Notes under the pieces: model-generated
The model's input: only the letters and a program-made list of their open reading frames with translations
Told to the model about the DNA's origin: nothing
Databases searched by the model: none
Shown: positions 16,273-29,654 of the stretch, in pieces
Numbering within the stretch: the first letter of the stretch is position 1
How the letters are laid out: the number at the start of each line of letters is the position of its first letter
Assembly (NCBI GenBank): GCA_025355165.1
Contig: JANYAD010000100.1
Coordinates: 1-32,332 of the forward strand
From: Gammaproteobacteria bacterium
Lineage (GTDB): Bacteria; Pseudomonadota; Gammaproteobacteria; Steroidobacterales; Steroidobacteraceae
Direction: 5' to 3'
DNA length: 32,332 nt
Program-made: the position numbers and the translations under genes

Positions 16273-16357
16273 GCCCAGGTGGCGGAACTGGTAGACGCGC
16301 TGGTTTCAGGTACCAGTGGAGCAATTCGTGGAGGTTCGAGTCCTCTCCTGGGCACCA
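16273..16357 (+). tRNA. leuT: tRNA-Leu (anticodon CAG)
   Basis: The sequence folds as a class II tRNA. The 7-bp acceptor stem is GCCCAGG/CCTGGGC (16273-16279 with 16347-16353), the D-arm contains GGTAGACGC, and the anticodon stem CTGGT/ACCAG closes loop TTCAGGT (anticodon CAG). A long variable arm (TGGAGCAATTCGTG) and a T-arm with TTCGAGT follow, then discriminator A and encoded CCA (16355-16357). It reads CUG leucine codons. The last 16 bases of the gene lie inside the 18-bp att repeat of the island, so its 3' end is supplied by the integrated element while its sequence is kept intact. The gene symbol is a guess from E. coli naming. Confidence 0.95.
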
Positions 16358-16359
16358 CA
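16342..16359 (+). repeat. attL core, 18-bp direct repeat at tRNA-Leu 3' end
   Basis: CCTCTCCTGGGCACCACA runs from the T-arm through the CCA end of the tRNA plus two more bases. It is identical to 28998-29015; the copies diverge immediately outside on both sides. Confidence 0.88.
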
Positions 16360-16394
16360 AATTGTAAACCGCTGATTTTCAAGGGAATTTAGAG

Positions 16395-16433
16395 GGGATA
16401 AAGGGATAAAAAGGCGATAAAGTAGGCGATAAT
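16395..16433 (+). repeat. Four tandem GGNGATAAA-type repeats between attL and the integrase gene
   Basis: The units are GGGATAAA (16395-16402), GGGATAAA (16403-16410), GGCGATAAA (16413-16421) and GGCGATAAT (16425-16433), in direct orientation. They sit between the att core and the integrase start. That is where arm-type integrase sites, excisionase sites or an operator would lie. Function is inferred from position only. Confidence 0.5.
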
Positions 16434-16457
16434 TTGTCGCCGACGGGAGTCGCCAAG

Positions 16458-17564
16458 ATGGAACCCACCCCCTGCAGAAAAGGCCACACCGAGCCGCGTA
16501 ATCGTTTCAATCAGTGCGTTGTCTGCTTGCGCGAGTCGCGCAGCGCGTACAAAAAATCACACCTGACAAAGCAGCGCGAACGTATCGCGCCGCCGCCCGC
16601 CGCGGCACCAGCACCGCGGCACTCGCCGCCAGCCCCGCGCTCGTTCCTCGCCGTCGCCCGGGAATACTTCACCACGCAAGACGACATCGCCGAGTCGACC
16701 GCTAAGAAGCGCGAGTACCTTCTTGAACAGCTGCAAGCTCTGCACGATGTACCCATCGGTGAGCTGACAACGCCAGGTATCGTCCGGGCGCTCAACGCCA
16801 TCGCGGCGAAGAGTGACCGGCGCGAGACCGCGCACCGCTGCGGCATGCTGGTGGGCCGTGTGACTAGGTTCGCCGTGAACCACGGCTACGCGGCGGTCAA
16901 CGTGTTGCCGATGGGCCAGCTGCGCGGAGCGCTCAAGCCGGTCAAGACCGACTCACACGCCGCGATCACCGACCCGAAGCGCTTCGGCAAGCTCCTCAAG
17001 TTCATCGATCTCTACTTCGATTTCGCCGGTAGCCGCTCGCAGCCCGGCGTGCGCTGGGCTATGCGGCTCGCGCCGCTCGTGTTCATGCGCCCGGGAGAAC
17101 TTCGCCAGATGGAATGGGCCGAAGTGAATCTCGACAAAGCAGAGTGGACGATACCGGCCGAGAAAATGAAGATGCGCCGACCGCACATCGTACCGCTAGC
17201 AAAGCAAGCGCTGGCTATCCTGCGGGCCGCGTACAAGGTGACGGGCGCCGACCGGTACGTGTTCAGAACTAGACGGCTCGACGAAGCGCTCTCTGAGAAT
17301 GGATTTCGCGAGGCGCTCAACACGGTACTGGGCGCGATGGGAGAACCCCGCGGCGCCCACACGATGCACGGCTATCGCAGCTCGGCATCGACGCTGCTCA
17401 ACGGCGAGCTGGGCATCGACTCTGCGCTAATCGAGCTGCAGCTCGCCCACGCGAAGGCCGACAAAGTGGCGGGCATCTACGACCGCTCGCAGCGGCTGCC
17501 GGAGCGTAGAGCGATGATGCAGAAATGGGCGACCTATTTGGATTCACTCAAAGGGAATAAGTGA
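16458..17564 (+). CDS. int: P4-type tyrosine integrase with N-terminal zinc-finger-like motif
   Basis: This site-specific recombinase probably inserts and excises the island at tRNA-Leu. In the catalytic domain the residues are in order: R211 (MRPGEL), a lysine in EKMKMRRPH, H304-x-x-R307 (HGYR), H331 (QLAHA) and the nucleophile Y341 (AGIYDRS), as in P4-family integrases. A SAM-like core-binding domain covers about 60-165. The usual N-terminal arm-binding domain of P4 integrases is not seen. Instead the start has C6-x3-H10-x9-C20-x2-C23, a probable zinc-binding motif, then an Ala/Pro linker. ATG 16458 is chosen because GGGAG lies just upstream; a TTG at 16434 is possible. The product is 368 residues. 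Its TGA overlaps the ATG of a broken small frame. Confidence 0.93.
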   Translation: MEPTPCRKGHTEPRNRFNQCVVCLRESRSAYKKSHLTKQRERIAPPPAAAPAPRHSPPAPRSFLAVAREYFTTQDDIAESTAKKREYLLEQLQALHDVPIGELTTPGIVRALNAIAAKSDRRETAHRCGMLVGRVTRFAVNHGYAAVNVLPMGQLRGALKPVKTDSHAAITDPKRFGKLLKFIDLYFDFAGSRSQPGVRWAMRLAPLVFMRPGELRQMEWAEVNLDKAEWTIPAEKMKMRRPHIVPLAKQALAILRAAYKVTGADRYVFRTRRLDEALSENGFREALNTVLGAMGEPRGAHTMHGYRSSASTLLNGELGIDSALIELQLAHAKADKVAGIYDRSQRLPERRAMMQKWATYLDSLKGNK

Positions 17565-17695
17565 TGGGTACGTTCACTAAAATTTAAGCTGTCGGTCTGC
17601 TAGTTGCTGTCGCGACGCCGCAGAGCGCGCCCGCGTTCGCGCAGGAAAGTTCGCAGGAGCGCGAGGCGCGCTTCCATGCGTGCGAGGAGACTTAG
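17564..17695 (+). pseudogene. Remnant of a small exported protein gene, coupled to the integrase stop
   Basis: An ATG at 17564 overlaps the integrase TGA. The frame reads MGTFTKI, a TAA at 17585-17587, then AVGLLVAVATPQSAPAFA, QESSQEREARFHACEET and TAG. The second part looks like the core and Ala-x-Ala cleavage site of a signal peptide followed by a short polar mature peptide. Two in-frame stops make a functional product unlikely without restart or readthrough. I recognise no family. Confidence 0.4.
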
Positions 17696-17750
17696 CAGCG
17701 CGCGTGATTCGCCCCTTACCCGATTTGTCTTTGCTACCGCACTTTCCCGC

Positions 17751-17780
17751 TTGACAAGCAGGACTTTCTGTAACTAGATT
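17751..17780 (+). promoter_or_regulatory. Predicted sigma-70 promoter of the large secreted protein gene
   Basis: A perfect TTGACA (17751-17756) is followed after 18 nt by TAGATT (17775-17780; 4 of 6 consensus). The start site would be near 17787, leaving a short leader with AAAAGGA before the ATG at 17832. Confidence 0.55.
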
Positions 17781-17831
17781 GCGAGGAGAGAGACGGATTG
17801 AAGACGAAATTAGAACAAAAGGATCAAAGGA

Positions 17832-19778
17832 ATGACGCGCTCTTCACGGTTCACAGCTCTCTTATGCATCGCAACTTTCTCCCTGCTCGTAGATGCAGTC
17901 ATCGCGCACGAATCAACCCCCGCATCTACTTGGTCGCCGGCCAAGAAGACGGTGACTGCCATTCCCGGAATTGCTAGGACGTTTACAGTCCAACTGATCG
18001 CGACTCGCACTCTGCCCAGGCCAGTCACAGTCGTCGCGCGGGGTCTAGCCGCGAGCGTAGTGTCGATCAGCCCAGCGGAGGTAGGCCCCTTGCTAGCCGG
18101 CTCCAGCGTGACGATTACCGTTAAAGTTGATTTACCGATTGATGAGCCACTCGGCAGCGAGCTACACGGTGTTTTGCTCTTGAAGCCCGCCACCTGCGCG
18201 AAAGGGGCGCCCGCAAGTGCGTCCGAGTACTGCACTGACGATGATTCAAACATTGGCCCGGCGTTGCCACTCACCGTGGAGGCGGCGCCGTTTGCGAATA
18301 CCACTCTCTATTCCGAAATCGGGGACCCCCGCGGCATCGCTTTCGATCTCCCGACGACGGACAACGCGACGCTGCTTGGAACGAAGAGCGCGGATGGTAC
18401 CGTCGTTGAACAGACTGGGGTGCTGTTACAGCGGCCGAACCAGCCTCAGTCGTATGTAAAGCAGGACGCGCTGGGCCGGCCAACCCATGTGGTCCTCGGC
18501 GATGTCTGCACGTTGGATATCACCTACCTGGACGCCGTCAATTTTACGGTTTCCGTAACCTATGCAAATGGCCAGAAAGTTATCATACCCATGAAGCTTC
18601 CTGAGGCAGCGCCTGCGAACGGGGCTAAATCCTCGGTCGCCGCACGACGCGTGCTTGCGGCTAGCGGTGGATTCACCGCCCCGACCGACGGTACGCTCGA
18701 TGTGTCTGTGACCGACACCTTGGGCCCCGTGAGCGGGGCGACCGTGATAGCAGATATCGTGTTGAATGATCCCCTCGGCGCCAGTGGGTTCCACCTTCCG
18801 CTTGACGAAGCGAGCCCGGGACATTACACGGGGCGCTTTGCATCCATTGCAAATCCGGTCCTTCCACCTGGTTGGGTGAGTGATTGCTCCAGCTGGGCCG
18901 AGAATGCCGAGGCGATTTGCTCTGCCATAGGAAATTCGATTAATTATTGGGCTACTAATGGATGTGGTCAGCTAGCTGCATTGGGACCCCCGCTTGCCGC
19001 GCAGCTTTGCGAAGCAGCGTTCCTTGGACTCAAGAGTGCATGCGGTGCAACCGCGTATACAAAGTACAATGGCGGTGAATTCATGTGTACCGTGATTGAG
19101 AAAGTATGGGATTTTTACTCGCCGTCGGGCTTAAAGTTTACGGCCACCGCTTCAAGTGCGAATCGGACGGGCATGAACACAACCACGGCTGCTGCTGGGA
19201 CTACTTTTGTGCCACTGCCCATTGTGCTTCCACCGCCCGACTGCACAACATATACGCCAGATACGGGGTCGTTTCCGATCACGTGGACGATGACGGATAA
19301 TTGGACGTATCCCTTGAGCAACACGAGCGCGCAAGCGACCTATACGCAATCGATGCCCGATCCTGTGGTCTACCTAGGAGATCTTGGCCTAAACATCGCC
19401 AGTGGATTTCAGAGCTGCAATGGCGCGTTTAAGCCCGCTCATAGCCAATGGATACAGCAGCCGACATCGACGAACGTCTTTACATACACATGGACTGCTT
19501 CACTTGATGCCTCAGGGACGCTGACTATCACCGAAGCAGGGATTTCCAACACCGTACCTCTTGGCTTCTATGTTGGCGATACGGTCACCTCGTATTCCGC
19601 GATGGAGAACGCTACGTGGACATTCAACATACCCACCGGGGTCTACAACATTACCCAGACGGACAGCCAGTCGATCACTTTCATTGACAGCTCCGGTAAT
19701 ACCGTCATTGGAAGTGAAACCGGTTCTGGTGGCACGAGTGGCACCGTGCCTGTGATACCGGCTTCGACGCCACCTTGA
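17832..19778 (+). CDS. Large secreted protein of unknown function
   Basis: I do not recognise this 648-residue protein. It has a signal peptide (hydrophobic core FTALLCIATFSLLVDAVIA, cleavage near residue 25). A beta-rich Ig-like region follows at about 30-160 (TFTVQLIATRTLPRPVTVV, SSVTITVKVDLP), then two further beta-rich segments, the second (about 275-335) resembling an Ig/filamin-like repeat (GTLDVSVTDTLGPVSGATV). A cysteine-containing middle at about 345-420 has eight or so cysteines, compatible with disulfides. The Thr/Ser-rich beta C-terminal half ends in a Gly/Ser/Thr/Pro tail. There is no obvious catalytic motif and no membrane anchor after the signal. It has its own promoter and a Shine-Dalgarno, suggesting expressed cargo. 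An adhesin-like or surface role is a guess. Confidence 0.75.
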   Translation: MTRSSRFTALLCIATFSLLVDAVIAHESTPASTWSPAKKTVTAIPGIARTFTVQLIATRTLPRPVTVVARGLAASVVSISPAEVGPLLAGSSVTITVKVDLPIDEPLGSELHGVLLLKPATCAKGAPASASEYCTDDDSNIGPALPLTVEAAPFANTTLYSEIGDPRGIAFDLPTTDNATLLGTKSADGTVVEQTGVLLQRPNQPQSYVKQDALGRPTHVVLGDVCTLDITYLDAVNFTVSVTYANGQKVIIPMKLPEAAPANGAKSSVAARRVLAASGGFTAPTDGTLDVSVTDTLGPVSGATVIADIVLNDPLGASGFHLPLDEASPGHYTGRFASIANPVLPPGWVSDCSSWAENAEAICSAIGNSINYWATNGCGQLAALGPPLAAQLCEAAFLGLKSACGATAYTKYNGGEFMCTVIEKVWDFYSPSGLKFTATASSANRTGMNTTTAAAGTTFVPLPIVLPPPDCTTYTPDTGSFPITWTMTDNWTYPLSNTSAQATYTQSMPDPVVYLGDLGLNIASGFQSCNGAFKPAHSQWIQQPTSTNVFTYTWTASLDASGTLTITEAGISNTVPLGFYVGDTVTSYSAMENATWTFNIPTGVYNITQTDSQSITFIDSSGNTVIGSETGSGGTSGTVPVIPASTPP

Positions 19779-19795
19779 ATATCTTTCTCCGAGTA

Positions 19796-19819
19796 GGTGA
19801 GGGCCTTGCGGTCCTCACC
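19796..19819 (+). terminator. Strong hairpin after the secreted protein gene
   Basis: The 10-bp stem GGTGAGGGCC/GGTCCTCACC (one G-T pair) closes a TTGC loop 18 bp after the stop. There is no T-run on either side, so it may be a weak or Rho-assisted terminator, or part of the adjacent transposase remnant. Confidence 0.35.
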
Positions 19820-19955
19820 CCTCACAGACCCGCACGTCCGCAACTGACGCATGCGGCCTTCCGTGCCTCAAGATCATCTTGATCACCCGCTCCTCCTCGA
19901 CGAAGGCGATGATCTTCCCCTCGGCGCCGCACCGCTCGCACGGTGACACCTCCAT
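19815..19955 (-). pseudogene. C-terminal fragment of an IS91/IS801-type transposase
   Basis: The frame from 19955 reads MEVSPCERCGAEGKIIAFVE, then EERVIKMILRHGRP, and stops at 19815. This matches the zinc-like C-terminal end of IS91/IS801-type transposases (CPxCGG-x-MRIIAFIED-xxVIxxILxHLGL). Upstream on the same strand, in another frame, RWVQRLKRG resembles the preceding segment, which implies a frameshift. Only about 50 codons survive, with no catalytic part. Assignment is from motif memory, without a search. Confidence 0.5.
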
Positions 19956-20481
19956 CCTGAACACCCCGCTTCAACCGCTGGACCCAGTGCGTCGAGCCCA
20001 CCGCTCGGATGATTAGTTTACGGGAGGAGGGGAATGACGGCTTTATTCAGTTGATTTCGGGACTAACGTTGCCCGAGTTTGGCCGTATTCGGCCTCCAAG
20101 CAGGCGGACTTCGACGACCAATGATAGCCCCAATACTGGAGCAGTCTTCCCCCACCCCCTTGTTGTCGCTGAACGTAAGTCGCCAAGTCCCGCGCATCGC
20201 GGTCTCGATCTTCGCCATTTGATTCACCGCGTTCGGGATCGCAGAGGTCGGTAGCCTCGCAGTGGAGGCGCGCCACGCGACCGTGCACTTGTTTGTGCGC
20301 GCCCGCGCTACGACATTGTTCGCGGCAGCCGCTCCGCCCACCGCCGCCAGGCGCCGCTTAGGGCTGCGAACCTCCGCAATGTCGGCACTCTAATCGCTGA
20401 TCGGAGCCGCCGGGATTTTGACTAAACCATCGAAAATAATGAGTCAATTTGTCCCGGGAAGGAAGACGGAAGGTCAAAGCA
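19956..20481. other. Stretch of about 525 bp without a supportable gene
   Basis: No frame in this stretch looks like a known protein. A minus-strand frame of 92 codons (20341-20063) contains MAKIETAMRGTWRLTFSDNKG but has no clear start signal or family. The interval probably holds debris of the transposon insertion to its left. Confidence 0.4.
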
Positions 20482-20506
20482 AAACCCCGGATCCGTATTG
20501 GGGTTT
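20482..20506 (-). terminator. Rho-independent terminator of the serine recombinase gene
   Basis: Read on the minus strand, AAACCCC (20506-20500) pairs with GGGGTTT (20488-20482) across an 11-nt loop and runs on into TTTTGCTTT. It begins 3 bp after the recombinase stop codon. Confidence 0.55.
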
Positions 20507-20509
20507 CGA

Positions 20510-21265
20510 CTATTGGTCCATAGGTCGGGATGCTCCGGCGTGGCGCCGGCCTGCCAGGATCCAGCTGCTACGGGCTACGCCGGCGAGCAGCCGGCGCTCG
20601 ACGTTGATTACGGCGGCCGCCGTCCACTGCTTGCCGCGGAGGGTTACGAAGCCCTGGTCGTTGAGCCAGCTCGCGACACAGCGCAGCGTGGTGCAGCCGC
20701 CCTCAGCTCGCGCCCGCTCGATCTGCGGTGCCATGTCCGCCGCATGCTTCTGCACCTTGCCCAGCAGCGCCGCGCGCCCCTTGACGCCCGCCGCGACCGC
20801 GTAGGCCGTCAGGTCGCGAGGTGTGCCGAGCGGTAGCCCGCGCGCCCTGCGCGCCGCCAGCGCCGCCTTCGTACGCGCCGAGATAGTCTCTCGCTCGTGC
20901 TGGGCGACGGTCGCGAGTACGCCCAGCATCAGCGTGGTGACCTCCGGCATGTCGAGCGCTATGAACTTCACGCCGGCATTGTGGAGCTTGAACAGGAACT
21001 CGGCGTTGCGGCTCAGCCGGTCCAGCTTCGCTGTGATCAGCGTCGAGCGCGTCTGCCGACAATGGAGTAGCGCGGCCTCCAGCTGCGGTCGGTCATCAGT
21101 CTTGCCGCTCTCGACCTCGACGTACTGCGCCAGCTCGACACCGCCGCTGGCCGCGAGGTGCTGCGCGATCACTGCCTGCTGGCTCTCCAAACCTAAACCG
21201 CTTGCGCCCTGTTTCAAAGTGGACACGCGGATGTAGCTGACGAACTTCTGCTTGGCCGGGCTCAT
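20510..21265 (-). CDS. Serine recombinase (resolvase/invertase family)
   Basis: The 251-residue protein has an N-terminal resolvase catalytic domain (about 7-145) with the nucleophile in YIRVST (S15), ESQQ (27-30), the active-site motif LDRLSRN (81-87) and the E-helix ARTKAALAARRARG (130-143). A C-terminal part (about 145-245) has a helix-turn-helix-like region ending TAAAVINVERRLLAGVARSS, much shorter than in large phage integrases. It could resolve or invert DNA within the island, or be left from another element; no res/dif-like site was identified. A terminator follows directly. The upstream HNH gene carries a related C-terminal region, so the two may share a history. Confidence 0.9.
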   Translation of the reverse strand: MSPAKQKFVSYIRVSTLKQGASGLGLESQQAVIAQHLAASGGVELAQYVEVESGKTDDRPQLEAALLHCRQTRSTLITAKLDRLSRNAEFLFKLHNAGVKFIALDMPEVTTLMLGVLATVAQHERETISARTKAALAARRARGLPLGTPRDLTAYAVAAGVKGRAALLGKVQKHAADMAPQIERARAEGGCTTLRCVASWLNDQGFVTLRGKQWTAAAVINVERRLLAGVARSSWILAGRRHAGASRPMDQ

Positions 21266-21330
21266 GTTCGATGTACCTCATGGAACGTTGAGGCAGATCA
21301 TACAGTGCCCGGAGCCTTCAATTAGCGGAA

Positions 21331-21771
21331 CTACGTCACAGATAAGGGTTGTTGCAGTGCGCTACGACTAGTTGCCAATATCCGTCTGATCGACTGCGCC
21401 GCGTACGTGCGGCCGTGGGCGTTCAGGTGTCCGGCAGCAGCCAGCTCGGCGGCGATGGCGCGTAGCGACAGGCCGCGAGCGTGCGCCGCCCAGGCGGCCT
21501 TGACGGCTGGCGCCGACGCCATGAGCCGCTCTGTCTTCACCCAGTTCGGGTTACCCGCATACACGCCCCTGGCCCTGGCGGCGGCTAACCCGTTTTTTAT
21601 TAGCGTGCTGATGTTCGCCGGCCGCCTGATGTCGTGCAGCAGCCCGTGGTGTGTGCCGCAGACGGTCAGGATGTTGGTAGGCTCGTCGCCTCCACCCTCT
21701 GACCTGGGCCGAACGTGGTGGTGCTCGATACCATCCTCAGTACCACAGAATACGCAAAAATTTAGGAACAT
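21331..21771 (-). CDS. HNH endonuclease fused to a serine-recombinase-type DNA-binding tail
   Basis: Residues 1-50 form an HNH domain: C6-x2-C9, HHH at 17-19, N33, and C38 with H41/H42 and H46. Residues 55-140 do not look like a nuclease but match the C-terminal segment of serine recombinases: the basic E-helix (IKNGLAAARARGVYAGNPN), then a helical HTH region (LSLRAIAAELAAAGHLNA) and SIRRILATS. The neighbouring recombinase has the same order (TKAALAARRARGLPLGTPR ... TAAAVINVERRLL). The combination suggests a nuclease guided by a recombinase-derived DNA-binding module. GAGGG precedes the ATG. Target and role are unknown; homing or phage-defence functions are possible. Confidence 0.85.
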   Translation of the reverse strand: MFLNFCVFCGTEDGIEHHHVRPRSEGGGDEPTNILTVCGTHHGLLHDIRRPANISTLIKNGLAAARARGVYAGNPNWVKTERLMASAPAVKAAWAAHARGLSLRAIAAELAAAGHLNAHGRTYAAQSIRRILATSRSALQQPLSVT

Positions 21772-21912
21772 GACGCCCTCGGTGTTTCATAGGCAGCGGC
21801 TCGACGGAGAGCTGCGAAGCGTCCGTGTCGGGGCGACACACGGCGGGGCACCTATTTTCGCTGCGATGAAATCAGCGGCGGCCGGCTAGGCCAGAGCGGT
21901 TGGCTTGGTTAT

Positions 21913-22284
21913 TTACGCAGCGCGCGACTTCGATTTCTTCGTCGCTGATTTCTTCGGCGCACGCTTCGGTACGGCAACCTCTTCTAGCGGCCCGAACTCG
22001 CCGTCGGGCTTAGCGAACCAGGCCGAGCTGGCGCGCGTGTCGACCACAATAAAATTACCGACCCGCGTAACTGGGTACAGCCCATCACCCAGCTCCGTCT
22101 CGCACGCGACCTGCGCCTCGCCTTGAGCGAAGTCGCCGATCCCTACCAGCCCCGAACCTATGCTGACGTCGCCTACGTATTCGTGCCGGAAGCGTGTTAC
22201 CAGCGACGCATAGAACTCGTCGTCCAGCTTCGTCGCGTTCTCTGGCGCAGGGTTGATGTCTATCGTGTCTATCGTGTAGCTCAT
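21913..22284 (-). CDS. Unknown small protein with basic C-terminal tail
   Basis: I do not recognise this protein of about 123 residues. It starts MSYTIDTIDINPAPENATKL. The middle is moderately hydrophobic (VGDVSIGSGLVGIGDF; YPVTRVGNFIVVDTRASSAW), and the tail is strongly basic (PKRAPKKSATKKSKSRAA), suggesting nucleic-acid contact. The ATG at 22284 is chosen because AGGAG lies just upstream. The frame is open to 22347, but the extra part (DHSQEHLHDHTHEE) is low-complexity and would overlap the upstream gene. It lies 59 bp after the 496-residue gene and is probably the last gene of that operon. Confidence 0.7.
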   Translation of the reverse strand: MSYTIDTIDINPAPENATKLDDEFYASLVTRFRHEYVGDVSIGSGLVGIGDFAQGEAQVACETELGDGLYPVTRVGNFIVVDTRASSAWFAKPDGEFGPLEEVAVPKRAPKKSATKKSKSRAA

Positions 22285-22343
22285 CTGAATCTCCTCGTGT
22301 GTATGGTCATGTAAATGTTCCTGTGAATGGTCTGGCGGCGCGG

Positions 22344-23834
22344 TCACTGGACGCCTCGCTTCGACACCAAAACGCCGGCAAGTAGCTCATCGACGCTGAA
22401 CCTGTTACGTTCACACCAGGGCCCGACCCATGCGGCCTCGGGCGGCGTCTCGCTCTTTAAAATTTCAACCCTTCTCATAGCCTTGAGCGCCGATACTTCT
22501 GCTTTCGCTATCTTCGCGTCTCGCGTCTTCTGTGCGATACGCTCGTCCAAAACGCGCAAGGTCTCTTCCACGTTATGGCCGTCCTCTCGCGCCTTCCGCT
22601 GTAGGTACCGCGCCGCCGTCTCTACGTACCGGTTGTCGGCCTGCTGCACGCGCTTGTCGAAGCTAGTCTCTGACATCTGGATTCGCTCTGCGTAGGTAGC
22701 CTTGCGCCCGCCGCCCGACATCTCGCGCATCTCTGCCGTGTCGAACGTGGCGCGCCGTTCGTAGTCCCCTACCAGCCTCCCTATCTTTTTTGCTTGCGCG
22801 TACGAGCGCATCGCGTTCTCATTGATATCGTCGCCACTGATCTCTGGAGCGTTGAGCCCAGACAGCATATCCATCGCCCCGTTGTGTATAGCCGCGGTGC
22901 GCAGGTTCATGTCCGTCGGCGCGGCGTCTTTGTACCTGCCTCTTTTTTCCATTTCATCGGCCTGGGGCGCCGAGCTTTCGGTTGACGTGTTCGTTATCTG
23001 CGTTAAGGTCTCGTCCGGGGCCAGATCTGGCTCCGCCGTTGCCGGCGCCACATAATCCTGAGAGGCCACCGTGAGCAGCCTCTCTGCCATCTCGTCTAGT
23101 CGCCCGCGTATCTCTCTTATTTTTGGTTCTCCCGCGCCGGTGCGCGCGGCGATGTCTCCGGCCCTCAGCCGGGGGTCGGCGATGATCTCCCGAACGACAT
23201 TTTTATGTCTCGTCTTCTTCAGTGTGAGCATGTACTCGGTGACCGCCTCCAGGAGCCACGTGTTCTCTGCCTCATCTAGCCGTACCCTATAGTCCAGCGC
23301 CGCCCGCTCCGCTCTCTTTCTCTCTTTCCGCTCGATCTCTCGCGAAGGTTCTGTAGACCAGGCATCACCAAAGTCGGTATGCCGGTCAAGGTCGTAGACC
23401 TGCTCTGACGGTAGCGGCTTGAACGTCCCGCCCACCCCGCCGCCCGTGAACTCCGTGGCCTTAATAAATGCCTGCCGCTCGGCGTCTAGGGCGCGGAAGA
23501 TCAGCGCTCTGACCGCCTCCGTCATAGGCTCGCGCCAGAACTTGCCGCTCTCGATGTAGTTCCGGTGCACGATGATCCACGCCGCCCACGCCGTAGGGTC
23601 TACGTTGTAGAGCGTGATGTTGCCGAACGTTTTAGGGTTTAGCCTGAGACGTGTCGCGTACGGGAAGATTGCGTCGATCATTAACAGGCGCGCCGTCGCG
23701 CCGTCTACAACAGCGGGTTTCGCCTCGTCCCCGCGCAGTTTGTTGAAGTGTATATTTTCGGGTATTTTCTCCTTGGTCAGGCCCTCGACTAGCGTTCTTA
23801 CGTATTCCCACGTCTCGATGGTGGCGTTGCTCAT
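22344..23834 (-). CDS. Unknown 496-residue protein with a predicted HTH segment
   Basis: No family is recognised. The N-terminal 130 residues look like a folded helical domain (TARLLMIDAIFPYATRLRLN; DPTAWAAWIIVHRNYIESGKFW). A highly charged helix follows (REIERKERKRAERAALDYRV, 165-184). Residues about 185-255 resemble sigma-factor region 4 or a similar HTH (DEAENTWLLEAVTEYML ... AGDIAARTGAGEPKIREIRG). The second half is charged and mostly helical with coiled-coil character (DERIAQKTRDAKIAKAEVSALKAM). The ATG overlaps the TGA of the 61-residue gene upstream (ATGA), so translation is coupled. A regulatory or replication-associated role within the element is possible but unproven. Confidence 0.75.
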   Translation of the reverse strand: MSNATIETWEYVRTLVEGLTKEKIPENIHFNKLRGDEAKPAVVDGATARLLMIDAIFPYATRLRLNPKTFGNITLYNVDPTAWAAWIIVHRNYIESGKFWREPMTEAVRALIFRALDAERQAFIKATEFTGGGVGGTFKPLPSEQVYDLDRHTDFGDAWSTEPSREIERKERKRAERAALDYRVRLDEAENTWLLEAVTEYMLTLKKTRHKNVVREIIADPRLRAGDIAARTGAGEPKIREIRGRLDEMAERLLTVASQDYVAPATAEPDLAPDETLTQITNTSTESSAPQADEMEKRGRYKDAAPTDMNLRTAAIHNGAMDMLSGLNAPEISGDDINENAMRSYAQAKKIGRLVGDYERRATFDTAEMREMSGGGRKATYAERIQMSETSFDKRVQQADNRYVETAARYLQRKAREDGHNVEETLRVLDERIAQKTRDAKIAKAEVSALKAMRRVEILKSETPPEAAWVGPWCERNRFSVDELLAGVLVSKRGVQ

Positions 23835-24016
23835 GGCGCACCCCGCTTTGCCAGCGCCGCTTCAACCGCGTCGTAGCAGGGCTGCCACATATTTTCAGGC
23901 AGAACAACGGTATTCATCACACCAAAAAAACCTAATATCTCAACCGCGGACGCTCGGTCGACCTTCTCTAATTTTCGTATTACATCGTTTAGCTCACGCT
24001 TCGTGACGGCGCTCAT
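23831..24016 (-). CDS. Unknown 61-residue protein, first intact gene of a coupled pair
   Basis: The protein starts MSAVTKRELNDVIRKLEKVD and ends YDAVEAALAKRGAP, probably all helical. The ATG at 24016 overlaps the TGA of the truncated frame upstream, and its own TGA overlaps the ATG of the 496-residue gene; both overlaps are ATGA. GGGAG precedes the ATG at suitable distance. No family is recognised. A small helical partner encoded directly before a large unknown protein suggests a complex or a regulator; this is inference. Confidence 0.65.
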   Translation of the reverse strand: MSAVTKRELNDVIRKLEKVDRASAVEILGFFGVMNTVVLPENMWQPCYDAVEAALAKRGAP

Positions 24017-24180
24017 GACTTTGCTCCCGCGAGCATCCGCGCCGGCAGCGCGCCGGTACGGTTGTATGTGCACTGCTCGTCCCTGTTCAGTCCCAGCCCC
24101 ACGTCTTCGTCTCGGTGCATCACCTCGGTCAGCGTCGGCGACGCTGGCAGCCCCGCCAAAATCTCCAACCATAGAGGTAG
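24013..24180 (-). pseudogene. 3' remnant of an unknown gene at the head of the minus-strand operon
   Basis: The minus frame ending at 24013 reads LEILAGLPASPTLTEVMHRD, then EDVGLGLNRDEQCTYNRTGALPARMLAGAKS. It is coupled by ATGA to the next gene, as expected of a real coding end. Further upstream the same strand is the antisense of a different gene, so the 5' part is missing. I read this as a gene cut by a recombination junction near 24180. The family is unknown. Confidence 0.45.
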
Positions 24181-25049
24181 CGCCGCCTTCGCTTGAACGA
24201 GGTTACCGCCGACACGGCCGGGTACATGGCGGCGCACGTGCACAAGTGGTCGGGATACGAGACCGACTTCCGCTCGGACGGGCAGCTCATAGACAAGCAG
24301 ACGGGGTTCCCCGTCGCGGGCGTGAAGGGGTCGGGCCTCTCGCCGGAGCAGTACAACAAAGCGATGAACGAAGCGAACACTCTCGTGACGGTCACGGACA
24401 CTGAAGGCCACCCCCACAACATAGCGACGTGGCAGGCGGCGAAAATGAACGGTATGCCCGTCAGCTCCGCCGCGGACTACATACAACAGAACGCGCAGGC
24501 GTCGGACGACATCGCGAAGAACAAGCAGAAGGTACAGAACCACCTCAACTCGACAAACGCGGCGCAGCAGGTGCAGCGGGGCGTCGTGCCGAGCACCTTG
24601 AACAGCCCCGCCGCGCAGGTACCCGGGCAGCCGCAGCAACAGCCTGGGCAGTCTGGCGCACCTACCACACGCACCCGTCGGGGCCCAGCTCGACAATGTT
24701 CTCGGACGACGACATCAACGTTTCGCAGAAGCTGAAGGCGCCGAGCTACATACTCGCGCGCGACGATAATAAAATTAAGATGTTCGACCCCACCAGCTCG
24801 AAGGTGCAGAAGGATACATCCTTCGGCGCCCAGTTCGGGCAAGGGACCAGGTTCTCGTACGGCAGCCCCGTAGACGAGACCCCGCCGACGCCCGCGCTCG
24901 CCGCGGCACCTCCTCCAGCGCAAGCCCCTCCGGCGCAGACTCCGTCCGCTCCGACGGTGCAGCCCGTGGCCGGTAGCCGCATCATGAAAGACTTCGCCGC
25001 GCGGCACCGTGCTCAGAAGTATAAGCCGAAGACTGTACACATAAAGTAG
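24181..25049 (+). pseudogene. Frameshifted gene with HTHP metal-binding (JAB/DUF4329-like) C-terminal domain
   Basis: The first frame runs from just after a TAG at 24178-24180 (possible TTG start 24193, ATG 24226). It encodes AAHVHKWSGYETDFRSDGQL, then a soluble domain and a Gln/Pro-rich linker (VPGQPQQQPGQ). Near 24645 the reading must slip by -1, equivalent to one lost base in a GGG run, to continue as VWRTYHTHPSGPSSTMFSDD, DINVSQKLKAPSYILARDD and a Pro/Ala-rich tail to 25049. HTHP followed by S/F-S-D-x-D is the zinc-site pattern of JAB and DUF4329 domains. The 5' end also looks lost. It could be decay, a sequencing error or a programmed slip; no classical slippery heptamer is present. Confidence 0.55.
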
Positions 25050-25106
25050 CAGGGACCGAACAGGCCGCAGGCCGAGACCGTGGTGAGGAGAGCGAAATGA
25101 AAGAAA

Positions 25107-25913
25107 GTGAAAAACAAAAGTTCGGATCAGAAAATTCTTGTGCTCGATATCGAGACCGCGCCGATAGAGGCATTCGTCTGGGGATTGTTCGATCAAAATA
25201 TTGGGATTGATTTCATTAAGAACGACTGGTCGATACTTAGCTACGCCGCGAAGTGGGTAGGCAGCAAGAAAATCATATATGCGGACACGGGCGGGCGCGG
25301 TGTTCGGAAGGTTCGCGACGATAAAATCTTGATGCGTCCTCTCTGGGATCTGCTCGACGCCGCCGATATCGTGATCGGACAAAATTTACGTAAGTTCGAT
25401 GCCAAAAAAGTTAATGCGAAAATGATAGCTCACGGGCTAGGCCCGCCATCACCGTACAAGGTGGTCGACACGCTGCTCGTGTCGCGCAAGCACTTCGCGT
25501 TCACGTCGAACAAGCTCGCGTTCACCTCGCGACTCCTCACCGACACGCCGAAGGATGAACACAAACGGTTCGCGGGTTTTGAATTGTGGAAAGAGTGTCT
25601 AGCGGATAATCCAGCGGCGTGGCGCGAGATGAAGAAGTACAACAAGCGCGACGTCGTGGCGACAGAAAAATTATATTTGAAACTACGGCCCTGGATAGCT
25701 GGACACCCGAGCGTAAGCGTGCACGAAGATCCTGAGTCGCCGACCTGTCCGCACTGCGATAGTTCAAAGATGCAGCGACGGGGCGTCTCCGTGCTACGCG
25801 CCGGGGGCTCGTACCCGAGATTTCAGTGTCAGGGTTGCGGCGCCTGGTCGAGAGGTAAAACGTTGCTACGCACAACGGCGTCTAGCAAAAAGCAATTGGT
25901 GTCTATTACCTGA
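25107..25913 (+). CDS. DEDDy 3'-5' exonuclease-like protein with C-terminal zinc ribbon
   Basis: The 268-residue protein has an RNase H-like exonuclease fold: motif I VLDIET (D14, E16), motif II GQNLRKFDAKK (D98), and motif III YNKRD (Y178, D182), which marks the DEDDy class. This resembles phage and YprB-type ribonuclease H-like proteins. Residues 214-244 add a C4 zinc ribbon (CPHC ... CQGC), probably for nucleic-acid binding. GTG 25107 is the only start in frame, because a TGA lies 6 bp upstream. The good Shine-Dalgarno GAGGAGAG is spaced for an ATG at 25097 in another frame. Initiation is therefore odd and may reflect a small indel in the A-rich start region. Confidence 0.82.
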   Translation: MKNKSSDQKILVLDIETAPIEAFVWGLFDQNIGIDFIKNDWSILSYAAKWVGSKKIIYADTGGRGVRKVRDDKILMRPLWDLLDAADIVIGQNLRKFDAKKVNAKMIAHGLGPPSPYKVVDTLLVSRKHFAFTSNKLAFTSRLLTDTPKDEHKRFAGFELWKECLADNPAAWREMKKYNKRDVVATEKLYLKLRPWIAGHPSVSVHEDPESPTCPHCDSSKMQRRGVSVLRAGGSYPRFQCQGCGAWSRGKTLLRTTASSKKQLVSIT

Positions 25914-26087
25914 ACTTTTGGAGTGACAGAAAATGAACGCCAGTCTTAAAAACGCGGGGGTTGCTGCGTCGAATGGCGCGTAGCGCCATTATATGGCGGT
26001 GTGAAAGGCCAAAGAATATTTTAATTCTGCGGTCCAGAACGGCTCCAACTGCTTGATATTTCACTGATTTCATGCTACCCTTAAAGG
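25914..26087. other. Intergenic DNA with a short perfect hairpin
   Basis: No gene is seen here. AATGGCGC-GTA-GCGCCATT (25972-25990) is a perfect 8-bp stem with a 3-nt loop, 60 bp after the exonuclease stop. It lacks a T-run. It may stabilise or end the exonuclease transcript. Confidence 0.4.
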
Positions 26088-26184
26088 CCCAAAGCAGCCT
26101 GCTCGTGAACTTCTCTTTTTGGGCGAAAGGGCGAGCAAATCAGAGTTACGCATTCCAAGAAGTTCACGAGCAGGCTGCTTTGGG
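26088..26184. repeat. 27-bp perfect inverted repeat, 43-nt spacer
   Basis: 26088-26114 (starting CCCAAAGCAGCCTGCTCG) is the exact reverse complement of 26158-26184 (ending CGAGCAGGCTGCTTTGGG). The 43-nt centre has no coding frame. No target-site duplication is evident at the outer edges. It could be a small MITE-like element, a large transcript hairpin, a recombination site pair, or a replication structure. It lies between the exonuclease and the toxin pair. Confidence 0.85.
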
Positions 26185-26335
26185 TAATTCGGGGCGCTAT
26201 GCGCCTAAAAAACGTGTAAATACAGTGCAGTAGACGTCCGTGGAGGGCCTACGTCACGCTGGGGGTGCGGTCGAGTTGACCATAGCTGTAGGTACGCCTA
26301 GGCTATGCGTAGGACGAACGGATAAGGAAATGGCC

Positions 26336-26512
26336 ATGACGGCAGCACTAAAGACACGCAGACATTCGGAAGACAATAATCGGACAGCGAAGCCCGAGTC
26401 GGATCGTCGTGCCTACCACATCAGCGAGATTCCTAAGTCCACCGTTGAGGCAATCAAGACCTCGCGCATGGATTCACGGCACGATCATCTCAACGCCCTG
26501 CTAGATCAGTAA
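26336..26512 (+). CDS. Small protein, probable antitoxin partner of the PemK-like toxin
   Basis: The 58-residue hydrophilic protein starts MTAALKTRRHSEDNNRTAKP and ends KTSRMDSRHDHLNALLDQ. The ATG at 26336 has AAGGA seven bases upstream; the frame is open from 26240 without better signals. The stop lies 22 bp before the toxin-like gene, the usual antitoxin-toxin arrangement. It shows no AbrB/MazE-type DNA-binding domain and may act only by covering the toxin. The antitoxin role is inferred from position and size alone. Confidence 0.6.
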   Translation: MTAALKTRRHSEDNNRTAKPESDRRAYHISEIPKSTVEAIKTSRMDSRHDHLNALLDQ

Positions 26513-26534
26513 CTCCTAAGCGCCTCCACTTACA

Positions 26535-26957
26535 GTGGACTATCCGAGCCCCGAAATTGGGCTTGTGATTACGTACTCATACCTCTGGAAGAACGAAGCC
26601 GCGGCCGGCCATTCAGGTGGCAGAAAAAATCGTCCGTGCGCGATTCTGCTTTCAGTTCAGCAAGCTCTCGGTGGCCCGACGGTCACGGTTGCGCCGATCA
26701 CGCACAGCAAGCCGCGCGACCCGAACGTCGCCGTCGAAATCCCGGCAGCGGTCTCACGCAATTTAGGCCTCGATGACGATAAGGGCTGGGTTGTGCTCGA
26801 CGAAGTAAATCAATTTACGTGGCCCGGTTACGATCTGCGCGTGAACCCTAAAACAGGCCAATATGAGTATGGATTTCTTCCGCCTCTGTTCTACGGCAAA
26901 CTCGTAACCAAATTCCATCAACTGGAGGCGACTCTTACAACTACGCCGCGAGACTAA
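26535..26957 (+). CDS. PemK/MazF-like toxin family protein
   Basis: The 140-residue protein begins PEIGLVITYSYLWKNEAAAG. It contains GRKNRPCAILLSV and TVTVAPITHSKP, which correspond to the PemK/MazF core (G-x-x-R-P and the T-H-S strand), then VEIPAAVSRNLGLDDDKGWVVLDEVNQFTWPG and YGFLPP, typical of the longer PemK-like subgroup. Members are usually ribosome-independent mRNA interferases that cut at short motifs. No start other than GTG 26535 fits before the conserved PEIGLV. The Shine-Dalgarno is weak, consistent with lower toxin yield. Together with the upstream small gene it could stabilise the island. Confidence 0.8.
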   Translation: MDYPSPEIGLVITYSYLWKNEAAAGHSGGRKNRPCAILLSVQQALGGPTVTVAPITHSKPRDPNVAVEIPAAVSRNLGLDDDKGWVVLDEVNQFTWPGYDLRVNPKTGQYEYGFLPPLFYGKLVTKFHQLEATLTTTPRD

Positions 26958-27071
26958 CTGACCACATCACGGCGCTCAACTATCGAAAACGGCTCGATGA
27001 AGCTGAAAATATGTGGTCGTCATCAGCAGAATCATCACGGCGGACTGCGCGAGTTCACAGCTCGGCTGTTG

Positions 27072-27971
27072 TTACTCCGCTGGGCGAGGTGGCTCCGGCG
27101 GAGGAGGAGGAGCTGCGTTTTCCTGTGCCTGCTTATAGATATTCGGCAGATCCCGCATGACTGCGATGGCTGCGCTTTGCTGCTCTGCTGAGAGACGGCG
27201 GTACTCGGCTTCATCGATTGGAAGTGCAAGATCGCGGCGCGCGCATAAAAGTGCTTCAGGCAAAAGGCTCGAATGCTCTTCCAACCAATCGGATAGCGCG
27301 GCTCCCAGCTTAAGAACGTCCGCCCCTTGCTGCGCATTTAGCTCCTTCATGGTTGCTGTATGTCTGCTGTGGTTTTCAAGTTCATTCTTGGCCTGCACGT
27401 TAAGCCGCTCCATTGCAGCCCTGTCTGAACTCCCTGCAATATTGTGTTCCTTCATCAGTTGCACAATTCGCTGGTGTTCAGCTATCGCAGAATCCATATA
27501 GCCCTGGGTTAGATCAATCTGCGTTTTTCGCACGACAAGTGGCGCTCTCCTAACTAGCATCTGAACGTAGCCTGGCATTACGGCTTTTTGAAATTTCATC
27601 AATGCAGTAACGGTGGGCTGCTGGGCAACTAAATGAGCCTTCAAAAGCATTGCGGTGTTGTCGACCATGCTGCGCCCTAGGGCCGTCTGATCTTCTTTGA
27701 CGTCCATCAGTCGAGACATCGAGGCCTGGATTCGCGAGACTGCCTCTATAGCTGGAAGATATACATCCCTCCGTAGAGACATTTCGCGCTCCAATCTTTG
27801 TTGGCCGGCATTGTGATCCTGTTGCATGCGGAGCTGCTTACGGGAGTTCCTATTGCTAAGAGTCGTGGTCACGAACGCGACACTCGCAGCAATAAGGGCA
27901 GCCCATACCGTATCCGGGACGTGAAAAAGCCCCGTGCTGATGAGCGCGAAAAATCCGCCTATGTAATCCAT
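27072..27971 (-). CDS. Membrane-anchored coiled-coil protein of unknown function
   Basis: The 299-residue protein has one hydrophobic segment near the N-terminus (about 22-38, VWAALIAASVAFVTTTL). A long, largely helical, charged region follows with coiled-coil tendency (SRKQLRMQQDHNAGQQRLER and on to about 235), and a Pro-rich tail (APPPPPEPPRPAE). The bulk is probably cytoplasmic. GGAGC precedes the ATG. No enzyme motif or family is recognised. It opposes the toxin gene and shares strand with the two following cargo genes, but gaps suggest separate transcription. Confidence 0.7.
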   Translation of the reverse strand: MDYIGGFFALISTGLFHVPDTVWAALIAASVAFVTTTLSNRNSRKQLRMQQDHNAGQQRLEREMSLRRDVYLPAIEAVSRIQASMSRLMDVKEDQTALGRSMVDNTAMLLKAHLVAQQPTVTALMKFQKAVMPGYVQMLVRRAPLVVRKTQIDLTQGYMDSAIAEHQRIVQLMKEHNIAGSSDRAAMERLNVQAKNELENHSRHTATMKELNAQQGADVLKLGAALSDWLEEHSSLLPEALLCARRDLALPIDEAEYRRLSAEQQSAAIAVMRDLPNIYKQAQENAAPPPPPEPPRPAE

Positions 27972-28010
27972 TGTCTGTGCTCCACTATTTCCACGGAAAT
28001 TTATTTTACG

Positions 28011-28247
28011 CTAACCGTCCCGCTTCATTTCAGGCCGCACGCTCGCTGTGCATTCCCTCTTCCCACACTTCGAGCAGCGCATACGGCTTACCACGCGATC
28101 AAGCTCGGCATCCCAGCCCGAGAACGCCGCCAGAGTCTCGGGGCGCGCGTTGCGGCTGTGCCCACACGTGCAGGTCAACCGAATGACGTACTGGCCTCCA
28201 TTGTCGGAGAGCTTGACGATGTGAAGGGCTGGGCGCGGCGGCATCAT
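28011..28247 (-). CDS. Small zinc-ribbon protein
   Basis: This 78-residue protein (MMPPRPALHIVKLSDNGGQY at the start) has two CxxC-type pairs: CTCGHSRNARPETLAAF and MRCSKCGKRECTASV. Small proteins with a C-x-C-G...C-x-x-C-G-K pattern of this kind are common in proteobacteria and their mobile DNA, with unknown function. The frame is open upstream to 28568, but that part overlaps the next gene on the same strand in another frame, so the ATG pair at 28247/28244 is preferred. Only a weak Shine-Dalgarno is present. Confidence 0.6.
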   Translation of the reverse strand: MMPPRPALHIVKLSDNGGQYVIRLTCTCGHSRNARPETLAAFSGWDAELDRVVSRMRCSKCGKRECTASVRPEMKRDG

Positions 28248-28327
28248 TGGAGCGCCAATTGTCTCGACGCCAGCATGCTGGCGTCCACCCAGTACCGGCG
28301 ACCCGCAACTACTGTATGCCGACGCGG

Positions 28328-28744
28328 CTAAGCCGACGCTCGATGGCAGAGCACAGAGACGAGCTTGAAGTCGATTGAATCCGGGGAAGGGCTCGCAAAC
28401 GTCGGCACAAATGGGAGGTCGCTTAGAGTTGGGCCGGTGATTGTCGGCTCTTCGGACAAGCCTTGCCGAAGAAATGCCAGTTTGCGTTCCTTGCAGTCGA
28501 AGGCCATCAGGTCGTAGGAGGGTTTTAGCGCCTCTCCAGTGGCCGACCAACGCTCTCGCCGAATCCATGCTGTCGTATATCCAGAGCGAATATCGATACC
28601 CTCCAGGGCGACACTCGCTGCGCTGTGATGATCGGAGCTAACGGCGACCATTTCCCAGTGCGCGGCTATCGCACTAGCCTGGGGGTCGGCGAGCGCCGAT
28701 GAAGCGATTGCTGCCGCGGCCATGATGATGCTGAATATTTTCAT
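28328..28744 (-). CDS. Small secreted protein, surface-adhesin-E-like
   Basis: The 138-residue protein has a clear signal peptide (MKIFSIIMAAAAIASSALA, cleavage before DPQ). The mature part has a W near residue 30, a GYTTAWIR strand and YDLMAFDCKERKLAF, resembling the surface-adhesin protein E type fold (W-x-strand, Y-D-x-x-x-x-x-D-C). It has two cysteines that could form a disulfide. Function is uncertain; relatives are small periplasmic or surface proteins. It is the last gene before the right att site. Confidence 0.6.
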   Translation of the reverse strand: MKIFSIIMAAAAIASSALADPQASAIAAHWEMVAVSSDHHSAASVALEGIDIRSGYTTAWIRRERWSATGEALKPSYDLMAFDCKERKLAFLRQGLSEEPTITGPTLSDLPFVPTFASPSPDSIDFKLVSVLCHRASA

Positions 28745-28997
28745 TGGCGATTTTACTCAACCTCCATCAAGTTCAAATCATTGCGCGCTGCGTGTAGCCA
28801 CGAGCTGCTTTAATTTGCAGGCCGGACACTCATCGCCGTATTGCGGCCTTGAAATACTCCAATGTGTTCAGGGAGGCCGAAGCATCTCAGCGGGGTCTAT
28901 GCCCTCGCTGTATTCTAAGTCACAGGGGCGCGTCCAGGATCAGGTTTTTTCTAGTCGTACCTGGTCGTTTACGGGTCCGTTTTCGTCCTTTAAGTGG
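28745..28997. other. Non-coding right end of the island
   Basis: No plausible gene, promoter or strong repeat is seen between the small secreted protein gene and attR. Arm-type integrase sites would be expected here, but I find no clear match to the GATAAA repeats at the left end. Confidence 0.5.
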
Positions 28998-29015
28998 CCT
29001 CTCCTGGGCACCACA
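28998..29015 (+). repeat. attR core, 18-bp direct repeat of the tRNA-Leu 3' end
   Basis: It is identical to 16342-16359. Only the T-arm/acceptor part of the tRNA is present; the preceding bases (TTTAAGTGG) do not continue the tRNA, so this is not a second gene. Confidence 0.88.
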
Positions 29016-29045
29016 CCCTTGCTTTCTGGATGCTATCGTCCACCC

Positions 29046-29547
29046 ATGACTTGGCCACCCGGTGCGGACCTTCGCACGCACTAGAGGCCACTCTGCCGGT
29101 ATTTTCCACCTACCTGTTGAGCTACATCAACGTCGGTATCTTTTGGAATAATCATCACCACATGCTGCATGCCACGGAGCGCGTCAACGGCCGCGTGTTG
29201 TGGGCGAATCTGTTCTTGTTGTTCTGGTTATCGGTCGTTCCGTTCGCAATAAGATGGATGGATGAAACCGGATTCGCCGCCTTGCCGACAGCAGCCTATG
29301 GCGTTGTATGGCGATGGCCGCAGGCGGCTACAATACATTGCAGCGTACGATTATCGCCTGCAATGGCCCCGATTCAAGACTAGCCGCGGCTCTAGAATCC
29401 GATTTGAAGGGCAAGCTTTCTATTGGTTTAGGCGTTGCGGCCGACCCGCTTGCATTCCTAAGACCGTGGGCGGCCATGGTGCTGTACGAGTTGGTTGCGC
29501 TGGTGTGGTTGGTGCTGGATCGGCGCATTGAAGCGGGCCCCGCGTGA
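29046..29547 (+). pseudogene. Decayed TMEM175-type (DUF1211) potassium channel gene
   Basis: Three frames together give a recognisable TMEM175-like protein. The pieces are WPPGADLR (frame 1, stop soon after), ALEATLPVFSTYLLSYINVG and FWNNHHHMLHATERVNGRVLW (frame 2), then MAMAAGGYNTLQRTIIACNG, a middle stretch and LVALVWLVLDRRIEAGPA (frame 3). The motif WNNHHHMLHAT is characteristic of the family. At least two frameshifts are needed, near 29073 and near 29300. The first transmembrane helix with its FSD selectivity motif is missing. The gene therefore lost its 5' end and reading frame. It begins 30 bp outside attR. Confidence 0.8.
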
Positions 29548-29654
29548 AGCGCGCCCAGGACAAAGTATTTGAAGGCCAGTAGGATGACGACCCACGCTTA
29601 GACCCGGAGCGACATCGCTGCATGGAGCTAAGCAGGGATCTGTCTAACCGGCGG
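29548..29654. other. Short intergenic gap with no recognised feature
   Basis: The gap lies between the channel pseudogene and the convergent diguanylate cyclase gene. No terminator hairpin with a T-run was found. Confidence 0.4.

Follow-up and report, generated by a model that had tools for sequence, protein, structure and literature searches.

A mosaic, integrase-bearing genomic island at the 3' end of tRNA-Leu(CAG) in a Steroidobacteraceae genome: probable boundaries and gene content

Genomic islands that target tRNA genes with P4-type tyrosine integrases form the class to which, given an integrase match to phrog_1, we take the element described here to belong: a putative island of about 12.66 kb beside the tRNA-Leu(CAG) gene in contig JANYAD010000100.1 of a gammaproteobacterium from the family Steroidobacteraceae. 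The stretch of DNA analysed, hereafter the window, is 32,332 nucleotides long and represents one whole contig (C181) of a 4.16-Mb genome in 271 contigs. As in P4-type tRNA islands, the integrase gene lies beside the tRNA gene and reads in the same direction, and the tRNA 3' end is duplicated at the far end. Unlike in those islands, a stretch containing Cys is visible by eye in the integrase N-terminus, and Pfam matches were confined to the central and catalytic domains. Phage satellites of the PICI and PICMI types are defined by an AlpA-type regulator together with a replication module, a combination that Pfam and PHROGs scans did not find here.

The Pseudomonas islands I23, I44 and I55 lie downstream of tmRNA, and I55 is transduced by jumbo phages; alpA served as one search criterion for islands of this type, and RadC or YqaJ homologues occur in many of them and defence systems in most, according to the available part of their description (PMC12595487). 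They share with the present island a tyrosine integrase, direct repeats and the lack of recognised transfer genes, whereas AlpA, RadC, YqaJ and defence systems were not found in the Pfam and PADLOC scans of the present island. P4-like satellites, in the portion of PMC8628076 available, resemble it in their tyrosine integrase and size class, but their core (Psu, delta, AlpA, epsilon and alpha) gave no Pfam match among the island open reading frames (ORFs) scanned; the Pfam profiles were those named in that portion, and Sid, which has a custom profile only, was left out. Integrative mobilisable elements (IMEs), as an excerpt of PMC5704250 presents them, likewise have a tyrosine integrase at a tRNA 3' end, and some carry toxin-antitoxin genes; unlike them, the present island has no relaxase that the scans could find.

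Boundaries, integrase and occupancy of the tRNA-Leu(CAG) site

The interval is bounded by two identical copies of an 18-bp direct repeat whose starts are 12,656 bp apart (Table 1). Allowing up to 3 mismatches revealed no third copy of this core in the window, and 100 dinucleotide shuffles gave a mean of 0.01 matches at no more than 3 mismatches, with two matches in none. The integrase ORF begins 74 bp past the left repeat and reads away from the tRNA. When this protein was aligned with 18 relatives, H312, R315 and Y349 were conserved in 19/19 sequences and R219 and H339 in 18/19; position 244, tested for the catalytic lysine, is K in this integrase and R in the 18 relatives.

Comparison with 22 other genomes of the same genus showed that the tRNA-Leu(CAG) site is unoccupied in relatives. 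In 13 of them the distance from this tRNA to a GGDEF gene was 13-2227 bp on one contig, compared with 13,297 bp in the window, where the GGDEF gene ends at 29655. None of the island ORFs matched within those 13 gaps at E 1e-3. The closest relative by the GGDEF gene (G007, 86% amino-acid identity) has a gap of 1147 bp. This gap contains an ORF that resembles a serine hydrolase by eye. Upstream of the tRNA, the distance from RNase R to tRNA-Leu(CAG) is 7-11 kb in G001, G002 and G004 (loci L060, L061 and L062), and several ORFs there look metabolic by eye. These stretches were considered as possible further islands and set aside: the ORFs look metabolic, and no ORF of the window's island matched there.

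Composition was examined by comparing 15 overlapping segments taken entirely from within the island with 20 overlapping segments of the left flank, each excluded from its own reference. Tetranucleotide distance to the flanks exceeded the left-flank maximum (0.3055) in 14 of the 15 island segments, the sole segment below it being 19501-21000 (0.271), and the elevated distance begins and ends near the two cores.

Related integrases provided a further comparison. At 1e-60, the integrase matched in 15 of 296 genomes of the order, its own genome included, with a best relative at 49% identity; seven genome-contig loci with integrase stretches 39-54% identical are titled Sphingopyxis, Sphingobium or Sphingomonas. 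At 12 of the 18 related loci, a tRNA or tmRNA gene lay no more than about 1 kb from the integrase match, the genes being those for Asn, Cys, Leu(TAA), Ser(GCT), Arg(CCT), an Ala/Arg pair and tmRNA, and none was present in the stretch examined at the other six. An exact tRNA-end repeat downstream of the integrase was found at two of the 18 loci, whose integrases are 46-48% identical to that of the window: at L176 (G216:C1:31000-50900) a 17-bp repeat of the tRNA-Asn end bounds 11.5 kb, and at L184 (G257:C176:2500-22000) a 21-bp repeat of the tRNA-Arg end bounds 9.3 kb. Among ten chosen ORFs scanned from the two elements, that of L176 encodes AlpA (3.5e-14) and a DnaB-N/AAA protein, and that of L184 encodes a MobA/VirD2-like relaxase (2e-13), a NikA-like protein and a protein kinase. 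L176 makes a stronger candidate for a satellite than the island of the window, and the L184 element looks like an IME. A 488-aa ORF in L176 resembles a terminase by eye; Pfam found no family for it.

Taken together, the two repeats, a tRNA target left intact, the neighbouring integrase and its conserved catalytic residues, the composition, the 13 relatives without island genes and the two related layouts argue strongly that this is an integrative island some 12.66 kb long, very probably inserted at the tRNA-Leu(CAG) 3' end by its own tyrosine integrase. The original prediction, made from the letters of the window, had proposed a complete island in tRNA-Leu with an adjacent integrase and exact 18-bp att repeats covering the tRNA 3' end, and each of these elements is borne out. 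Under this model, the island's integrase would recombine a circular element bearing a single 18-bp core with the identical core at the tRNA 3' end; the left junction would then keep an unbroken tRNA, and the right junction would gain a second core. This integrase probably made the insertion and may still be able to excise the island.

Table 1. Features of the putative island and its immediate surroundings (window coordinates).
Feature	Coordinates	Strand	Support or remark
tRNA-Leu(CAG), probable integration target, complete at left junction	16273..16357	+	ARAGORN; Rfam RF00005 at 16273-16354
Left 18-bp att repeat: last 16 nt of the tRNA (encoded CCA included) plus CA	16342..16359	+	
Tyrosine integrase, 376 aa, TTG start or ATG at 16458	16434..17564	+	Phage_integrase PF00589 E 4.2e-15; Phage_int_M PF22022 1.4e-11; phrog_1 E 1.4e-39
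648-aa protein, signal-peptide-like N-terminus (by eye)	17832..19778	+	no match above cut-off
Serine recombinase (resolvase/invertase type), 251 aa	20510..21265	-	PF00239 2.1e-25; phrog_125 1.2e-31
HNH nuclease, 146 aa	21331..21771	-	PF01844 1.6e-4 (above cut-off); phrog_740 8.9e-8
144-aa orphan, 4-bp overlap with adjoining 496-aa gene	21913..22347	-	no family
496-aa orphan	22344..23834	-	only a sub-cut-off HTH_37 match, residues 207-254
66-aa orphan (shorter reading of 113-aa ORF), start of minus-strand run, 4-bp overlap	23831..24031	-	no family
JAB-domain-like gene in two frames	24193..25049	+	Prok-JAB 8.4e-4, below its cut-off
Phage-type 3'-5' exonuclease ('DNA polymerase exonuclease subunit'), 268 aa	25107..25913	+	phrog_403 3.6e-95; PF13482 2.5e-5
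Perfect 27-nt inverted repeat, 43-nt spacer	26088..26184	.	sole occurrence in own genome
60-aa small protein, possible antitoxin by position only	26330..26512	+	ORF list; no family match
PemK/MazF-like toxin, 140 aa	26535..26957	+	PF02452 8.5e-5, 23.2 bits vs cut-off 23.1
299-aa protein, hydrophobic N-terminal stretch (by eye)	27072..27971	-	no curated family; phrog_13166 (function unknown) 0.0015
185-aa ORF, overlaps next ORF in different frame	28011..28568	-	no family
138-aa protein	28328..28744	-	weak Adhesin_E match 0.0039, below cut-off
Right 18-bp att repeat, island end	28998..29015	+	
Decayed TMEM175 potassium-channel gene, N-terminally truncated	29016-29654		outside right repeat, before GGDEF gene; PF06736 E 9.7e-16, match from profile position 32 of 88

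Cargo genes and neighbouring features

The cargo is a mosaic composed of a minus-strand run of orphan genes ending in the HNH nuclease and serine recombinase genes, a phage-type exonuclease gene and a PemK-like toxin gene. The serine recombinase had two matches in phage records at 1e-20, with 40-43% identity. The HNH protein gave three phage-record matches covering one third of its length, a single viral-contig match (35% over residues 16-82) and a weak recombinase-like match at its C-terminus (PF07508, 0.017, below cut-off), with no relative at 1e-15 in 195 other genomes of the order. The exonuclease matched 1517 phage records, every one below 60% identity, and IMG/VR contigs at up to 59%. 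On the 80 viral loci examined that contain its relatives, the remaining island ORFs had no match at 1e-3 except for two weak ones to the HNH protein, at L094 and L095. Together with its possible small upstream partner, the PemK-like toxin would favour retention of the island.

The expectation that several cargo genes would belong to no recognisable family was confirmed for the 648-aa, 496-aa, 144-aa and 66-aa proteins, none of which matched anything above cut-off. The 648-aa protein had no relative at 1e-3 in any of 195 other genomes of the order and none in viral contigs, and the 144-aa orphan had none in phages or viral contigs; searches of viral and genome contigs detect close relatives only. 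For the 496-aa protein, Pfam, PHROGs, NCBIfam and PADLOC gave nothing above cut-off, and no relative was found in phages, plasmids, viral contigs, genome contigs, PDB sequences or 295 other genomes from the order. Its proposed co-occurrence with the integrase in other islands thus had nothing to be compared with. A single-sequence AlphaFold2 model of this protein was unusable (mean pLDDT 39.4). PADLOC, run on ten ORFs that left out those for the integrase, serine recombinase, HNH nuclease and PemK-like toxin, gave a single match, to the 113-aa ORF (E 0.017).

The JAB-like gene changes frame near 24640 (by eye), with GC at third codon positions (GC3) of 0.89 and 0.79 in the two frames, and is either a broken gene or the product of a sequencing frameshift. 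Neither of its ORFs found anything in phages, and the second found nothing in viral contigs. Where the 185-aa and 138-aa ORFs overlap, at most one part is likely to be coding. The inverted repeat has a very stable predicted hairpin (fold z -9.4). It was considered as a mobile repeat and rejected, since it occupies a single place in its genome and is absent from 97 other genomes; its 21-nt arm pattern is also absent from viral contigs. Outside the right repeat, the C-terminal part of the TMEM175 remnant apparently continues in another frame (by eye), Pfam gave no family for that part, and a second copy was not found in the same genome.

Mode of transfer and competing origins

Scans with Pfam, PHROGs and NCBIfam were used to search the island ORFs for transfer functions. 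None of the ORFs scanned had a match at cut-off to a conjugation, relaxase or virion family, in agreement with the original prediction; the only name of this kind listed was DotA, matched below cut-off (E 0.028) by the ORF at 24193. Library profile scans likewise found no relaxase, NikA/MobC or coupling-protein family, and no family for AlpA, primase/helicase, terminase or capsid was present at cut-off. The PHROGs scan found no virion family, which speaks against a prophage. The view of the region as satellite-like or mobilisable and of unknown type is therefore not sustained by its gene content, and the prediction as a whole stands in part: the island with att repeats is supported and the satellite-like or mobilisable character is not, although related integrases sit in such elements.

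Several observations weigh against the integrative reading. No exact repeat of at least 14 nt at the tRNA end was found at 16 of the 18 related integrase loci, in scanned stretches of 3.2 to 20 kb that often ended at a contig end. The remaining nine of the 22 same-genus genomes had no contiguous tRNA-GGDEF stretch among the matches and are uninformative for the gap. The original prediction had proposed looking in relatives for an empty site joining 16341 to 29016; the unoccupied site was found in the 13 genomes described above, and the exact join was not seen in the loci compared, because 29016-29654 has no counterpart there. Codon-position GC within the island is a mosaic (GC3 0.55 to 0.89), which stepwise accretion would fit too. 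Such accretion, in which a smaller tRNA island was later enlarged by insertions, among them a serine-recombinase module, a toxin-antitoxin pair and DNA of phage origin, and is not one transferable unit today, is a serious though somewhat improbable alternative. It is consistent with the mixed gene strands and varied codon-position GC, with the JAB-like gene in two frames, with the TMEM175 remnant directly outside the right core, and with exonuclease loci in viral contigs that lack relatives of the other island ORFs, the two weak HNH matches excepted. Set against it are the presence of just two cores, which enclose the whole interval, and the rise in tetranucleotide distance that begins and ends near them. 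For the arrival of the first part, accretion is compatible with integrase-mediated insertion at the tRNA. That the repeat arose by chance or by duplication of a tRNA fragment, without site-specific integration, is extremely improbable: the shuffles, the adjacent integrase and the unoccupied relatives all argue against it, and only the absence of the exact empty site from the loci compared speaks for it.

An IME mobilised by a conjugative helper, by way of an oriT or a relaxase of a new type, is unlikely: a related integrase does reside in the 9.3-kb relaxase and NikA element of L184, and an oriT alone suffices in some IMEs by the excerpt of PMC5704250, yet none of the mobilisation families named above was found. 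Very unlikely, too, is a P4-, PICI- or PICMI-like phage satellite with unrecognised regulators. A size near 12 kb, a tRNA-adjacent integrase, one phage-type replication gene and the related integrase in the AlpA and DnaB-type element of L176 fit such a satellite, while AlpA, primase/helicase, terminase, Psu, delta and epsilon were all missing at cut-off from the ORFs scanned. We give similarly little credence to the possibility that the minus-strand run at 20510-24031 (66-aa, 496-aa, 144-aa, HNH and serine recombinase genes) forms a module, so far unrecognised, for replication, mobilisation or phage exploitation, belonging to a small family of islands whose remaining members lie outside the collections searched.

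For the tRNA-Leu(CAG) island itself, no recognisable transfer machinery is present, and a helper-borne or former mobile element is therefore most likely. Movement by a helper, either a transducing phage or a conjugative element acting on an undetected oriT, and loss of a former transfer module appear about equally probable. The lack of a recognised self-transfer, mobilisation or phage-hijacking module fits helper-carried islands such as I55, as the available part of PMC12595487 portrays it, and a decayed element alike.

Place among related islands

The element is best filed as an integrase-bearing genomic island with mosaic cargo and without a recognisable transfer module, which is a known kind. 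It is cleanly delimited, with boundaries that can be read from the sequence. Integrases at 46-48% identity serve both AlpA/DnaB-type and relaxase-bearing elements, and the contrast between the AlpA and DnaB-type proteins of L176 and the relaxase of L184 therefore indicates that related integrases serve different transfer strategies. The cargo adds a small stock of orphan genes, and the general picture of such islands is unchanged by this one.

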